DNA from: Asanoa sp. WMMD1127
GTDB lineage: Bacteria; Actinomycetota; Actinomycetes; Mycobacteriales; Micromonosporaceae
DNA length: 64,000 nt
Assembly (NCBI RefSeq): GCF_029626225.1
Contig: NZ_JARUBP010000001.1
Location: forward strand, 7,440,001-7,504,000
Direction: 5' to 3'
The position numbers and the translations under genes are program-made. Shown piece after piece: positions 32,697 to 49,433 of the stretch. Each line of letters begins with the position of its first letter. Position 1 is the first letter of the stretch. Under the pieces are notes generated by a model that was not told the DNA's origin, ran no database searches, and worked only from the letters and a program-made list of their open reading frames with translations.

Positions 32697-33896
32697 GTGC
32701 ACGCCTCCCCCGCGCCGGTCATGGACCGGCGGCTCACGTTCCTGTTCGCCGTCGCCGCGGGTGGGGCGGTCGCCAACCTCTACTGGGCGCAGCCGCTGCT
32801 CGACCTGATCGCCGACGACCTGGGCGCGTCCACCACGACCGCCGGCTGGTTGGTGACCGCCGCGCAGGTCGGCTACGCGCTCGGCGTGCTGCTGATCGTG
32901 CCGCTGGGCGACGTGCTCGACCGGCGCCGGCTCATACCCACCATGCTGGGCTGTTCCGCCGTCGCGCTCGTGCTCTGCGCGGTGTCGCCCACGATCGGCA
33001 TGCTGCTGGCGGCGATCGCGCTGCTCGGCGTGACCACCGTTTCCGGGCAGCTGCTCACGCCGCTCGCCGGCGACCTGGCCGACGACGCCCAGCGCGGTCA
33101 CGTCGTCGGCACCGTCGCCTCCGGCATCCTCACGGGCATCCTGGCCTCGCGTACGGTCAGCGGCCTGATCGCCGGCGTCGCCGGTTGGCGGGCCGTCGTG
33201 GTGGTCGCCGCCGCCGGCGCGGTGCTGCTCGCCGTGCTGTTGCACCGAGCCCTGCCGCCGCTGGAGCCGAAGACGCGGATGCCCTACCGCGCGCTGATCG
33301 CCTCGGTGCCCGCGGTCGCGCTGCGCGAGCGGACGGTGCGCTGGACCCTCGTACTCGGCATGACCGGCTTCGCGGCCTTCGCTCTTTTCTGGACCTCGCT
33401 GACGTTCCTGCTGAGCGGGCCGCCGTTCGACTACAGCGTTTCCACGATCGGCCTCTTCGGACTCGCCGGCCTCGCCGGTGCCATCGCCGCGCAGCGCGTC
33501 GGCCGGCTGCACGACCGCGGCTGGTCGATCCCCGCCACCGGCGTCGCCTGGCTGGTGGTGCTGCTGTCGTTCGCCCTGGCCGCGCTGGCCGGCCGCTCGG
33601 TCGTGCTGCTGATCGTCGCGGTGGTGACGCTCGACGCCGGCGCGCAGTCGCTCGCGATCCTCAACCAGACGCGCGTCTTCGCCGTCTCGCACGCCGCCCG
33701 CAGCCGCCTCAACACGGCGTTCGTGGTCAGCAACTTCATCGGCGGCGGCCTCGGCTCCGCGGCCGCCACCCTCCTGTGGTCGGCCGGCGGCTGGCCGGCG
33801 ATCACGGTCGCCGGCATGCTGCTGAGCTGCTTCGCCCTCGCCGTGTGGGCGGCCGGCCGCCGCGGCGCCCTGGTCGTCGCTCCCGCGCGGCCATGA
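32697..33896 (+). CDS. MFS transporter, first of a tandem pair
   Basis: This 399-residue, roughly 12-helix transporter has MFS motif A (GDVLDRRRLIP, about residues 71-81) and begins after a short N-terminus with VANLYWAQPLLDLIADDLG. It is clearly similar along its whole length to the next gene. GTG at 32697 is used; ATG at 32721 (MDRRLTF) is possible. Its TGA overlaps the next ATG as ATGA. The family includes small-molecule and drug efflux pumps; no substrate is evident. No regulator lies immediately adjacent. Confidence 0.88.
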   Translation: MHASPAPVMDRRLTFLFAVAAGGAVANLYWAQPLLDLIADDLGASTTTAGWLVTAAQVGYALGVLLIVPLGDVLDRRRLIPTMLGCSAVALVLCAVSPTIGMLLAAIALLGVTTVSGQLLTPLAGDLADDAQRGHVVGTVASGILTGILASRTVSGLIAGVAGWRAVVVVAAAGAVLLAVLLHRALPPLEPKTRMPYRALIASVPAVALRERTVRWTLVLGMTGFAAFALFWTSLTFLLSGPPFDYSVSTIGLFGLAGLAGAIAAQRVGRLHDRGWSIPATGVAWLVVLLSFALAALAGRSVVLLIVAVVTLDAGAQSLAILNQTRVFAVSHAARSRLNTAFVVSNFIGGGLGSAAATLLWSAGGWPAITVAGMLLSCFALAVWAAGRRGALVVAPARP

Positions 33897-46901: not shown

Positions 46902-48161
46902 TTACGGGGTCAGGCGGTGCAGGTCGCGCGGGAACGCGGTGACCTCGCGGACGTTCTGCGCCCCTAGCAGGCGGGCCACGAAGCGCTCCAGGCCGATGGC
47001 GAAGCCGCCGTGCGGCGGCATGCCGTGGCGGAACGCCTCGACGTAGCTCTCGACGCCGGTCAGGTCCCCGTCGAGGGCGCTGACGTAGTCGGCGTACTCG
47101 TGCAGCCGCTGCCCGCCCGTCACCATCTCCAGGCCGCGGAACAGCAGGTCGAACGAGTTGGAGTGGGTCGGCCGGTCCGGCTCGGGATGCGTGTAGAACG
47201 GGCGCTTGCGCATCGGGTAGCCGGTCACGAAGACGAAGTCCGAGCCGTGCTCCCGCTGCGCCCACTCCCCCAGCGCGCGCTCGTGGGCCGGGGCCAGGTC
47301 GGGCTCGTCCGCCGGCGCCCCGGCGATCTCCAGCGCCGTCGTGAAGTGCACGGCGGGGATCTCCTCGGGCACCTCGGGGACGGCGAAGCCCGGCAGCCGC
47401 TCGGCGACCGCCTCGGTCATTCCGGCCACCACGTCGCGGAGCACCGCCATCACGTCGCGGTGGTCCCGGATGAAGCCGAGCTCCACGTCCAGCGAGGTGT
47501 ACTGGGCCAGGTGGCGGGCCGTGTCGTGCGGCTCGGCGCGGAAGACCGGGCCGACCTCGTAGACGCGCTCGAAGACGCCGACCATGAGCTGCTTGTAGAA
47601 CTGCGGGCTCTGGGCCAGGTAGGCGCGCGTACCGAAGTAGTCGAGGCCGAACACGTTGGCGCCACTCTCCGTGGCCGACGCGACGATCTTGGGCGTGAAG
47701 ATCTCGGTGAAGCCGTTGGCGTCCAGAGTCCTTCGGAAGCCCGCCGCGGCGGCGGCCGCCGCCTTGAGCGCCCGGGTGCGGCTGTTGTGCCGCAACGAGG
47801 TCGCCGCGTGGTCGAGCTGCGTGGGCAGAGTCGCCGTGAGCAGCGGACGGAACAGGTCGAACGGCGGGGGTACGGCGGGCGCGGACAGCGTGCGTACCGC
47901 CGGCCCGGTGATCTCCACGCCCAGCGGCGCCGCGCTGTTGGCCGTGGCGGTGCCCGTGACCTCGACGACCGTCTCCTCGGGCAGCTGCTCGAGCAGGGTG
48001 CGCTGGTCGTCGGCGTTGACCACGATCTGCACCAGGCCGCCGCGGTCGCGCAGGATCAGGAAGGCGACCGACTTGAGCAGGCGGCGCCGGTGCACCCAGC
48101 CTTGGACGGTGACCGCGCTGCCGATGTGCTCGGGCAGCTGGTGGGACAGGATGCGTTGCAT
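46902..48161 (-). CDS. aspS: Aspartyl-tRNA synthetase, archaeal type (probably non-discriminating)
   Basis: This 419-residue class II synthetase charges tRNA-Asp and perhaps tRNA-Asn. It has an N-terminal OB domain (about 15-100, [18 protein letters not shown]) and a catalytic domain with motif 2 ([16 protein letters not shown], about 212-227) and motif 3 ([16 protein letters not shown] near the C-terminus). It lacks the bacterial GAD insertion, so it is of the archaeal/eukaryotic AspRS2 type. If it makes Asp-tRNA-Asn, the GatCAB amidotransferase would be needed. ATG at 48161 follows GAGGAGGT. A T-box leader with an Asp codon lies directly upstream. It sits antisense between lipB and lipA. 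Confidence 0.9.
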
Positions 48162-48167
48162 GTGGTG

Positions 48168-48385
48168 ACCTCCTCGTTCGTCGCAACGCGATCCCCGGGA
48201 GGTGTGGGCGAGCGGGTTCCTCGCGGTGCCACCACACCTTCGCCCCGGCGGGCTTGCTTGCCGGGGCCTCGTTTGTCGTGCTCGGCTCGGGAGTGTCTTC
48301 GCGACCGGCACCGGGCCACCGTCACAGCGAGTGGTGGCTCTCTCGGCCGGCGTGGTCGGTCGCTACTTGGTTCCGTCACTGCCGT
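48168..48385 (-). ncRNA. T-box riboswitch with Asp (GAC) specifier controlling aspS translation
   Basis: Minus-strand elements in order: AGTA (48367-48364) at the base of stem I, a GAGAGAG loop (48344-48338), stem I closing strands GCGACCG and CGGTCGC, specifier GAC (48297-48295) in CGAAGACA, stem III (48267-48242, 8 bp), and an antiterminator (48239-48200) with an 8-bp A1 helix AGGTGTGG/CCACACCT, a 7-nt bulge TGGCACC and a 5-bp A2 helix GCGAG/CTCGC. TGGC pairs with GCCA, fitting the G73 discriminator of tRNA-Asp. TGTGGTG (48236-48230) can instead pair with CACCACA (48167-48161), between the ribosome site (48175-48168) and the start codon, so control is probably translational. A TAGTCT box (48399-48394) would start the RNA near 48387. 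Confidence 0.85.
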
Positions 48386-48487
48386 TGCGGCTGAGACTAC
48401 CGGAGACCGCCACCGCTTTACGCTGGTGAGGGGCGTCACAGACTGTGAACCGTGTCGCCCTGTATGTGGGACGGATGAACACCGGGA

Positions 48488-48493
48488 TACGCT
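48488..48493 (+). promoter_or_regulatory. -10 box of a probable leaderless lipA mRNA
   Basis: TACGCT is followed by 7 nt and the GTG at 48501. ATGTGG at 48464-48469 is a weak -35 candidate. Confidence 0.55.
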
Positions 48494-48500
48494 CGGATTC

Positions 48501-49433
48501 GTGACGATCGCTCCAGAAGGCCGCCGGCTCCTGCGCATCGAGGCGCGGAACGCCGAGACGCCGATCGAGCGCAAGCCACCGTGGATCAAGGTCAAGGCCA
48601 AGATGGGCCCCGAGTTCACCTCGCTCCACGGTCTGGTGCAGCGCGAAGGCTTGCACACCGTCTGCCAGGAGGCGGGCTGTCCCAACATCTACGAGTGTTG
48701 GGAAGACCGTGAGGCCACCTTCCTGATCGGCGGCGACCAGTGCACCCGGCGGTGCGACTTCTGCCAGATCGACACGGGCAAGCCGGCCGAATTCGACGCC
48801 GACGAGCCGCGCCGCGTCGCGGAGTCGGTGGCCACGATGGGCCTGCGCTACGCGACGGTCACGGGCGTGGCCCGCGACGACCTCCCGGACGGCGGCGCCT
48901 GGCTCTACGCGGAGACGGTCCGCCAGATCCACGCCCTCCAGGAGGGCTGCGGCGTCGAGCTGCTCATCCCGGACTTCAACGGCACCCCTTCTTTGTTGAC
49001 CCAGGTCTTCGAGTCGCACCCCGAGGTGCTCGCCCACAACGTGGAGACGGTCCCGCGCATCTTCAAGCGGATCCGCCCGGGCTTCCGCTACGAGCGGTCG
49101 CTGGACGTCATCACCCAGGCCCGCACCTTCGGCCTGGTGACGAAGTCCAACCTGATCCTCGGCATGGGCGAGGAGCGGTCGGAGGTCTCCCAGGCGCTGC
49201 GCGACCTGCACGCGGCGGGCTGCGAGCTGGTGACGATCACGCAGTACCTGCGCCCGTCGCCACGGCACCACCCGGTCGAGCGCTGGGTCAAGCCGGAGGA
49301 GTTCGTCGAGCTGTCGCAGGAGGCGGAGCAGATCGGCTTCGCGGGCGTCATGAGCGGCCCGCTCGTCCGCTCCTCCTACCGCGCGGGTCGGCTCTACCAG
49401 CAGGCTCTGGACGCGCGTACGCCGGCGGTCTGA
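48501..49433 (+). CDS. lipA: Lipoyl synthase
   Basis: LipA is a radical-SAM enzyme that inserts two sulfur atoms into protein-bound octanoate. The 310-residue protein carries both cluster motifs: the auxiliary cluster in [12 protein letters not shown] (about residues 55-66) and the radical-SAM CTRRCDFC (about 82-89). The C-terminal RSSYRAG provides the Ser ligand of the auxiliary cluster. GTG at 48501 gives a normal family length; the open frame continues far upstream but only as shadow of other features. It shares the intergenic region with the divergent aspS T-box leader. Sulfur and cluster supply may involve the HesB-like protein. Confidence 0.96.

Follow-up and report, generated by a model that had tools for sequence, protein, structure and literature searches.

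T-box riboswitches were sorted into at least four classes in 2023 (passages of PMC10482949). According to those passages, Class II members have a long Stem I, lack Stem II and are specific for glycine, and Classes I and II generally control transcription. For Actinobacteria, a 2005 study describes T-boxes in front of ileS (excerpts of PMC1262725). A 2008 survey that covered 19 genomes of Actinobacteria found T-boxes in 12 of them, 32 in all, with 18 of the 32 in Symbiobacterium (excerpts of PMC2494555). A T-box database released in 2020 searched actinobacterial genomes with a model of its own (excerpts of PMC7778990); it may contain aspS leaders already. Among the titles, abstract openings and passages covered by our literature search, no description of an actinobacterial aspS T-box was found.

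Here we describe a leader upstream of an aspS gene of Asanoa sp. WMMD1127. It was analysed within a stretch of 64,000 nucleotides, hereafter called the window, to which the coordinates refer. By its testable features the element is a T-box, with a layout like that of Class II and not that of Class III or IV. It belongs to a widespread and poorly annotated actinobacterial group, two features of which are undescribed for T-boxes of such shape in the passages covered. We conclude that an Asp-specific T-box riboswitch acting at the level of translation very probably controls a second aspartyl-tRNA synthetase.

A T-box leader upstream of an archaeal-type aspS gene

A complete T-box leader with GAC as specifier is found on the minus strand of the window (48399-48153), ahead of an archaeal-type aspS gene, aspS2. 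The leader of aspS2 itself runs from about 48388 to 48162. When 471 bases were searched alone, the Rfam model RF00230 matched 48388-48201 with a score of 44 bits (E 1.5e-8), the alignment spanning model positions 1-219. This match, obtained in the covariance-model check that the preliminary description had suggested, is significant over the entire model, though under its gathering score of 93; at the gathering threshold, Rfam gives no match in the leader. A whole-genome search recovered the leader with an E value of 6.1e-8, and the sole other match precedes ileS. When 14 relatives were searched jointly, at most nine loci reached E 0.01; L010, L089, L090, L094 and L098 did not. By minimum free energy, the leader is no more stable than shuffled sequences (z 0.13). 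The evidence for the leader is therefore homology and covariation, not stability.

The threshold matters well beyond this locus. In a sample of 118 genomes of the class, 63 have a T-box match at E 0.001 and none at the gathering score of 93 bits. Because that score misses every match in these genomes, T-box switches are under-annotated at the Rfam threshold.

The landmarks recognised in the preliminary description are all present, in the expected order, on the minus strand, where all features given below also lie. Stem I has the long form (48293..48370) and carries AGTA (48367-48364) and the distal loop GAGAGAG (48344-48338), both read from the sequence, as well as an apical CTG (48327-48325) placed by alignment. 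The Asp specifier GAC (48295..48297) is set in GAA-GAC-A. A 27-nt linker (48268..48294) replaces Stem II, as judged from the distance between specifier and T-box. Stem III (48242..48267), located from the predicted fold and the Rfam alignment, is flanked by AAACGAG and GAA. The antiterminator, or antisequestrator, occupies 48201..48238. Its helix A1 pairs 48238-48232 with 48207-48201 over 7 bp, or 8 bp if the flanking A-T is counted. Helix A2 pairs 48224-48220 with 48212-48208 over 5 bp, and the bulge TGGCACC (48231-48225) is located between the two helices.

Upstream of these elements, the -10-like hexamer TAGTCT (48394..48399) probably marks a promoter. In 119 of the 136 leaders with a long Stem I, the pattern TAnnnT starts at a conserved position, 30-32 nt upstream of AGTA. 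The aspS2 transcript would be expected to start near 48387, just ahead of Stem I. The placement of the hexamer speaks against a transcription start inside the element, a finding that the preliminary description had named as fatal to its reading and of which we see no sign. A scan of the leader region for consensus sigma-70 promoters gave no -35/-10 pair.

Leaders of related aspS2 genes

Relatives with named hosts were represented by the best 80 of 286. Further aspS2 loci came from other genome samples (class, f16, f24 and f18); each of these, like a T-box search of the class, gave at most 30 loci. Families are designated by number; f1 corresponds to Micromonosporaceae and f16 to Streptosporangiaceae, as judged from named loci and their neighbours in the tree. 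The extraction script was tried on 177 loci and kept 150 leaders in which an antiterminator could be recognised, including the window's own copy (L097). These leaders span seven families and 136 of them are distinct. Among the 27 failures, the motif is present with no start call in L103 and L145, L158 has the variant TGGCAGC, L141 ends at a contig edge, L150 has little upstream sequence, and the T-box of G007 (L110) sits farther upstream. In the same genome G007, the T-box-preceded aspS2 (L217, 55-4739) is interrupted after residue 89 by about 3.2 kb and appears as two separate tblastn matches. The searches required TGG[CT]AC[CA], GAAGAC and [AG][AG]GTA, so that the constancy of these letters is partly built in.

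The specifier-to-T-box distance, which is 69 nt in the window (script count), was used to judge the room for Stem II in place of a Stem II model. By this measure, 105 of the 150 leaders combine a long Stem I with more than 85 nt, 31 combine it with at most 85 nt, and the remaining 14 lack a long Stem I. The 31 leaders without room for Stem II are found in f1 (18), f24 (11), f16 (1) and f18 (1). The 14 others include six from Catellatospora, five from f24, and L034, where a repeat occupies the position of Stem I.

Leaders of aspS without a long Stem I include L090, L094, L095, L098, L099, L100, L156, L010 and L013. In several leaders of this kind, TGAC can be seen by eye in a small hairpin-like loop. 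Overlapping GAC and AAC in L098 and L099 make a dual Asp/Asn reading conceivable. Besides, a Micromonospora repeat (GGAAGGGCCCCC ... TTAACACC) lies in or near the T-box at differing places in L012, L034, L043, L045 and L074. L034 has lost Stem I; L043 has lost the antiterminator and Stem I and kept GCGTTGC. Both represent natural knock-outs of the switch.

Stem I and its aspartate specifier

From 126 Stem I segments, 64 were selected, and removal of the length outliers L146, L170 and L185 left 61 aligned homologues. RNAalifold identified 16 pairs in this alignment, 14 of them with changes on both sides. The covariation score is 0.562, against 0.213 for shuffled alignments (sd 0.013), none of the 500 shuffles scoring as high. 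It falls to at most 0.100 when the partner strand is slid. Paired cells amount to 92.6%, versus 72.8% after shuffling. These statistics are inflated by the relatedness of the sequences and by scoring the structure on the alignment that yielded it, though hardly to such a size. Among positions that the selection did not require, four bases of the distal AGAGA loop and the apical-loop UG do not vary; AGTA and GAAGAC are invariant too but were largely required. The long Stem I of the preliminary description is thus borne out, as is the covariation that it had asked for in Stem I.

With the specifier codon left open, GAC is read in 124 of 144 matched leaders (six leaders were unmatched). The 20 other readings comprise 13 leaders without a long Stem I and seven misplaced matches (L045, L074, L140, L142, L147, L152 and L153), where GAAGAC is found elsewhere in the leader. 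GAAGAC is missing within 330 nt in 14 of the 150 leaders, the same 14 that have no long Stem I. The proposed Asp specifier therefore stands, upstream of aspS2.

The genome has a tRNA-Asp(GTC) gene, one of two tRNA-Asp genes, whose G73 is complementary to the C of TGGC. The specifier of the window thus matches the tRNA of the downstream gene, and the TGGCACC bulge fits its discriminator base, as had been predicted from the leader. The variable T-box base is C in 138 leaders and U in 12, the search having allowed just these two; both are compatible with G73. The tRNA-Asn of the genome also has G73, but the window's specifier loop contains no AAC codon.

Two further observations concern tRNA genes. 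The second tRNA-Asp gene belongs to a group of 14 tRNA genes within 3 kb (L187), at about 96-99 kb of contig 1, which may be a mobile tRNA array. In the window, ARAGORN reports a tRNA-Ala with anticodon CGC at 33541-33632 (92 bases); it lies inside long open frames and is probably a false positive.

An antiterminator with a G-C pair at the bulge

Both helices of the antiterminator carry compensatory changes across the 136 distinct leaders, in line with the covariation expected for A1 and A2 in the preliminary description. In A1, position 1 is G-C in 92 leaders and A-U in 34, position 3 is U-A in 119 and C-G in 9, and position 5 is U-A in 79 and C-G in 52. In A2, position 2 is C-G in 128 and G-C in 8. 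The A2 base pair at the bulge shows no such variation, being G-C in all 136 distinct aspS leaders, in a search that permitted G-U.

In the other T-boxes of the class, among the loci listed, the same pair is G-U in 22 of 24 by script and in 23 by eye. L207 reads G-C by script and G-U by eye, and L215 gives no clear reading. For this comparison, L196, L197 and L204 could not be placed and three loci are aspS leaders, leaving the 24 counted. Ten of them precede ileS according to NCBIfam (partial genes, below the whole-protein cut-off), seven precede ileS according to tblastn (L199, L202, L206, L209, L210, L216 and L001), and seven were assigned by neither. L001 is the ileS T-box of the Asanoa genome itself, and its A2 pair is G-U.

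At this position, the conserved G-U is described as the chief barrier to 3'-aminoacyl tRNA, and purine-rich flanks of Stem III are said to reject 2'-aminoacyl tRNA (passages of PMC7583486). Thus, of the two-part aminoacyl sieve of the glyQ discriminator, the G-U wobble is absent from the aspS leaders, and purine-rich Stem III flanks seem present in the window. Because the 3'-aminoacyl sensor pair is G-C, the sensitivity of the aspS T-box to charging is not guaranteed. The element might bind tRNA-Asp and discriminate charging poorly, expression then following the level or folding of tRNA-Asp. The contrast between aspS leaders and the listed other T-boxes, together with the role attributed to G-U, points this way. 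However, A1 and A2 have stayed paired while their sequences changed across seven families, a surprising pattern for a discriminator of no importance, and the purine-rich flanks that seem present also argue for discrimination. We regard poor discrimination as unlikely and favour a T-box that would sense the charging of tRNA-Asp.

Predicted sequestration of the Shine-Dalgarno sequence

Downstream of the bulge, the anti-Shine-Dalgarno sequence ACCTCC (48198..48203) overlaps the 3' strand of A1. In the RNA, ACCUCC corresponds to this strand (A1') plus an extension and is complementary to the Shine-Dalgarno sequence GGAGGU (GGAGGT in the DNA, 48168..48173), its partner in the predicted OFF fold. 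The Shine-Dalgarno sequence of the window has a predicted unpaired probability of 0.003 in the free ensemble and 0.85 with the antiterminator forced. The free fold (-39.1) is 7 kcal/mol more stable than the fold with the antiterminator forced (-32.1).

Shine-Dalgarno exposure is predicted to rise with the antiterminator in 128 of 150 leaders (64/79 in f1, 25/28 in f16, 19/23 in f18, 16/16 in f24, 2/2 in f10, 1/1 in f3 and 1/1 in f33). The mean gain is small in f18 (from 0.41 to 0.49) and in f16 (from 0.33 to 0.40). At least five contiguous Watson-Crick pairs between A1' and the Shine-Dalgarno sequence are found in 54 of 68 leaders of f1 (16.2 expected), 14 of 15 of f24 (2.9 expected), 10 of 28 of f16 (4.5 expected) and 4 of 21 of f18 (3.5 expected). 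Single f18 and f16 leaders have long imperfect duplexes. In L142 (f24), AUCUCC faces GGAGAU, a compensating change in this helix. When anti-Shine-Dalgarno and Shine-Dalgarno sequences were swapped between families, the own partner was preferred only in f24. Going by these pairing counts, support for the A1' switch is good in Micromonosporaceae and f24, moderate in f16 and scant in f18.

A scan of the minus strand from 48100 to 48520 for terminator patterns gave no terminator-like site. A T-box that terminates transcription, whether in the manner of glyQS or through Rho, would agree with the layout, since a long Stem I without Stem II is that of glyQS and is generally transcriptional (passages of PMC10482949). 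The empty terminator scan and the pairing of A1' with the Shine-Dalgarno sequence instead make such a mechanism very improbable here. The aspS T-box apparently acts on translation, with A1' sequestering the Shine-Dalgarno sequence in the modelled folds.

The preliminary description had proposed a translational mode as probable, and that part holds up. It had attributed the mode to pairing of TGTGGTG with CACCACA across the start region. This helix occurs in the predicted fold of the window's leader, yet it is poorly conserved across relatives and is not the better-conserved helix of the region. At least six pairs are found in 8 of 48 short-linker leaders (2.3 expected) and in 2 of 20 long-linker leaders (1.5 expected). 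It was therefore rejected as a conserved switch.

A different helix, S2, could involve the start codon. Its 5' strand GCGTTGC (48183..48189) can pair with GCAACGC (48153..48159), which comprises the last base of the start codon and codons 2-3. In Micromonosporaceae, 43 of 48 distinct short-linker leaders can form at least seven Watson-Crick pairs of GCGUUGC with GCAACGC, against 0.5 expected with a shuffled linker; for long-linker leaders the count is 2 of 20 (0.3 expected). The helix is nearly invariant among these related leaders, with no covariation beyond wobble variants (L020, L021). S2 is predicted to be able to form with the antiterminator forced, too. We hypothesize that S2 acts as a second lock on the start codon; together with ACCUCC/GGAGGU it would form an H-type pseudoknot. 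S2 might have explained the CAA codon, but L099 has ATGCAACGC and lacks GCGTTGC upstream, so the CAA codon can exist without S2.

AspRS2 is mostly a second enzyme

aspS2 (46902..48161) encodes a 419 aa archaeal-type AspRS. The product exceeds the cut-off of NCBIfam NF003483 (512.6 bits versus 353), a model for aspartate--tRNA(Asn) ligase, which confirms the archaeal type first assigned to it. It misses the related model TIGR00458 (335.9 versus 368.4). From its sequence, the enzyme is probably a non-discriminating AspRS. The protein is 83-86% identical to those of four named Asanoa species. In the window, aspS2 points away from lipA and towards lipB; profile matches confirm the identity of both genes. 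lipA adjoins aspS2 in 80 of 80 Micromonosporaceae loci tested, and lipB does so too in 66 of the 80. This constant neighbourhood makes a role as the self-resistance gene of a biosynthetic cluster unlikely in Micromonosporaceae.

An Asp-specific T-box on such a gene had been thought rare. This view had to be abandoned: 150 leaders were found in seven families, and a T-box precedes aspS2 in 19 of the 28 aspS2 genomes of the class sample (18 by motif, plus G007). Nor is the gene strain-specific. Genomes with aspS2 above the cut-off number 58 of 81 in the family, 28 of 296 in the class, 28 of 100 in f16, 19 of 61 in f24 and 47 of 150 in f18.

In the class sample, bacterial-type AspRS1 is present in exactly the same 19 genomes as the T-box. 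The nine genomes in which no T-box was found before aspS2 belong to f33 and have no AspRS1, so that AspRS2 stands alone. A second set comprised 68 genomes, 63 of them with AspRS1 and 55 with a recognisable T-box. Five of these 55 have no detected AspRS1; all are f24 drafts of 77-93% completeness. The 13 aspS2 loci without a recognisable T-box (L132, L133, L175, L176, L178, L179, L181, L182, L141, L148, L149, L150 and L158) all have AspRS1 in the genome, and eight of them fall in one weakly supported AspRS2 subclade. Overall, aspS2 is a second enzyme beside AspRS1 in 69 of 74 T-box genomes checked. T-box control therefore accompanies second-copy status, and not the reverse. In a tree of 117 AspRS2 proteins, T-boxes are found in two deep clades and in none of the nine proteins of the f33 clade; deeper inferences from the tree would be unsafe, since the method was quick and the branches are long. 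G451, G428 and G529 have two AspRS2-type matches beside AspRS1, the second of G428 being partial and below the cut-off.

These distributions also bear on whether the T-box could be a vestige in front of a non-essential spare gene. Loss of Stem I in L034, loss of the antiterminator and Stem I through an inserted repeat in L043, the insertion that splits aspS2 in G007 and the lack of aspS2 in 23 of 81 family genomes would all agree with decay. Compensatory changes across the helices and the position of aspS2 beside lipA in every Micromonosporaceae locus tested argue for maintenance, and we consider a vestigial element most improbable. A functional switch on a second synthetase thus remains our preferred reading.

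Proposed mechanism

We infer that the GAC specifier of the long Stem I would base-pair with the tRNA-Asp anticodon, while the distal loop would be presented to the tRNA elbow. The GCCA end of uncharged tRNA-Asp would then pair with TGGC in the bulge and stabilise the antisequestrator, which would occupy CCACACC and free the Shine-Dalgarno sequence. With charged tRNA-Asp, A1' and its extension (ACCUCC) would pair with GGAGGU and translation would be off. Since aspS2 is kept beside a bacterial-type AspRS, the switch would most likely provide an inducible backup when charging of tRNA-Asp falls, through inhibition of AspRS1 or shortage of aspartate. Dealanylascamycin, a nucleoside from Streptomyces, is reported to hijack the AspRS of Plasmodium among other synthetases (excerpts of PMC12262901). 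Compounds of this kind are a possible reason for keeping an AspRS backup. The T-box also marks aspS2 as a conditional enzyme of these actinomycetes.

More tentatively, the leaders might represent an actinobacterial Asp T-box lineage with a rebuilt G-C discriminator and, in most short-linker Micromonosporaceae, an H-type pseudoknot locking both the Shine-Dalgarno sequence and the start codon, the same orthologous leader having lost Stem II or the distal Stem I, depending on the lineage. This extended picture is possible but doubtful.

Comparison with known T-box systems

Several features of the Asp T-box depart from published generalisations. An Asp T-box with the glyQS layout contradicts the link between this layout and glycine (passages of PMC10482949). 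If the translational reading holds, it would also contradict the link of the glyQS layout with control of transcription. The fixed G-C at the aminoacyl sensor offers a natural variant for testing a structural claim on T-boxes. The series of 105, 31 and 14 leaders on one gene provides a direct natural test of the roles of Stem II and of the elbow contact.

The closest likeness is to the Class II glyQS T-box of Bacillus subtilis. Both have a long Stem I with distal loops, a specifier in an internal loop, a single-stranded linker where Stem II would be, Stem III, and an antiterminator with a 7-nt bulge. Unlike Class II T-boxes as described in passages of PMC10482949, the window element is specific for Asp and has a probable Shine-Dalgarno sequestrator. 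It also carries G-C as its A2 base pair. The actinobacterial ileS T-boxes of Nocardia farcinica and Mycobacterium tuberculosis resemble its probable mode in being translational and sequestering the Shine-Dalgarno sequence (excerpts of PMC1262725 and PMC7583486). However, ileS T-boxes of Classes III and IV are described as requiring Stem II and having a Stem I of short or intermediate length (passages of PMC10482949), whereas Stem I of the window is long with no room for Stem II. The distinction from the ultrashort ileS class drawn in the preliminary description is therefore well founded. It extends to the A2 pair, which is G-U in most of the listed non-aspS T-boxes, 17 of the 24 being ileS, and G-C in aspS leaders.

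In Clostridium acetobutylicum, a member of Firmicutes, one of three aspS genes is controlled by a T-box (excerpts of PMC2494555). The comparison covers gene copy status: in the present case, too, the controlled gene is one of several copies, in a different phylum. Finally, a few translational T-boxes with a canonical long Stem I are mentioned in passages of PMC7583486 and share the long Stem I and the probable mode of the window element. The combination of a long Stem I with translational control, taken as a single trait, is therefore already known.
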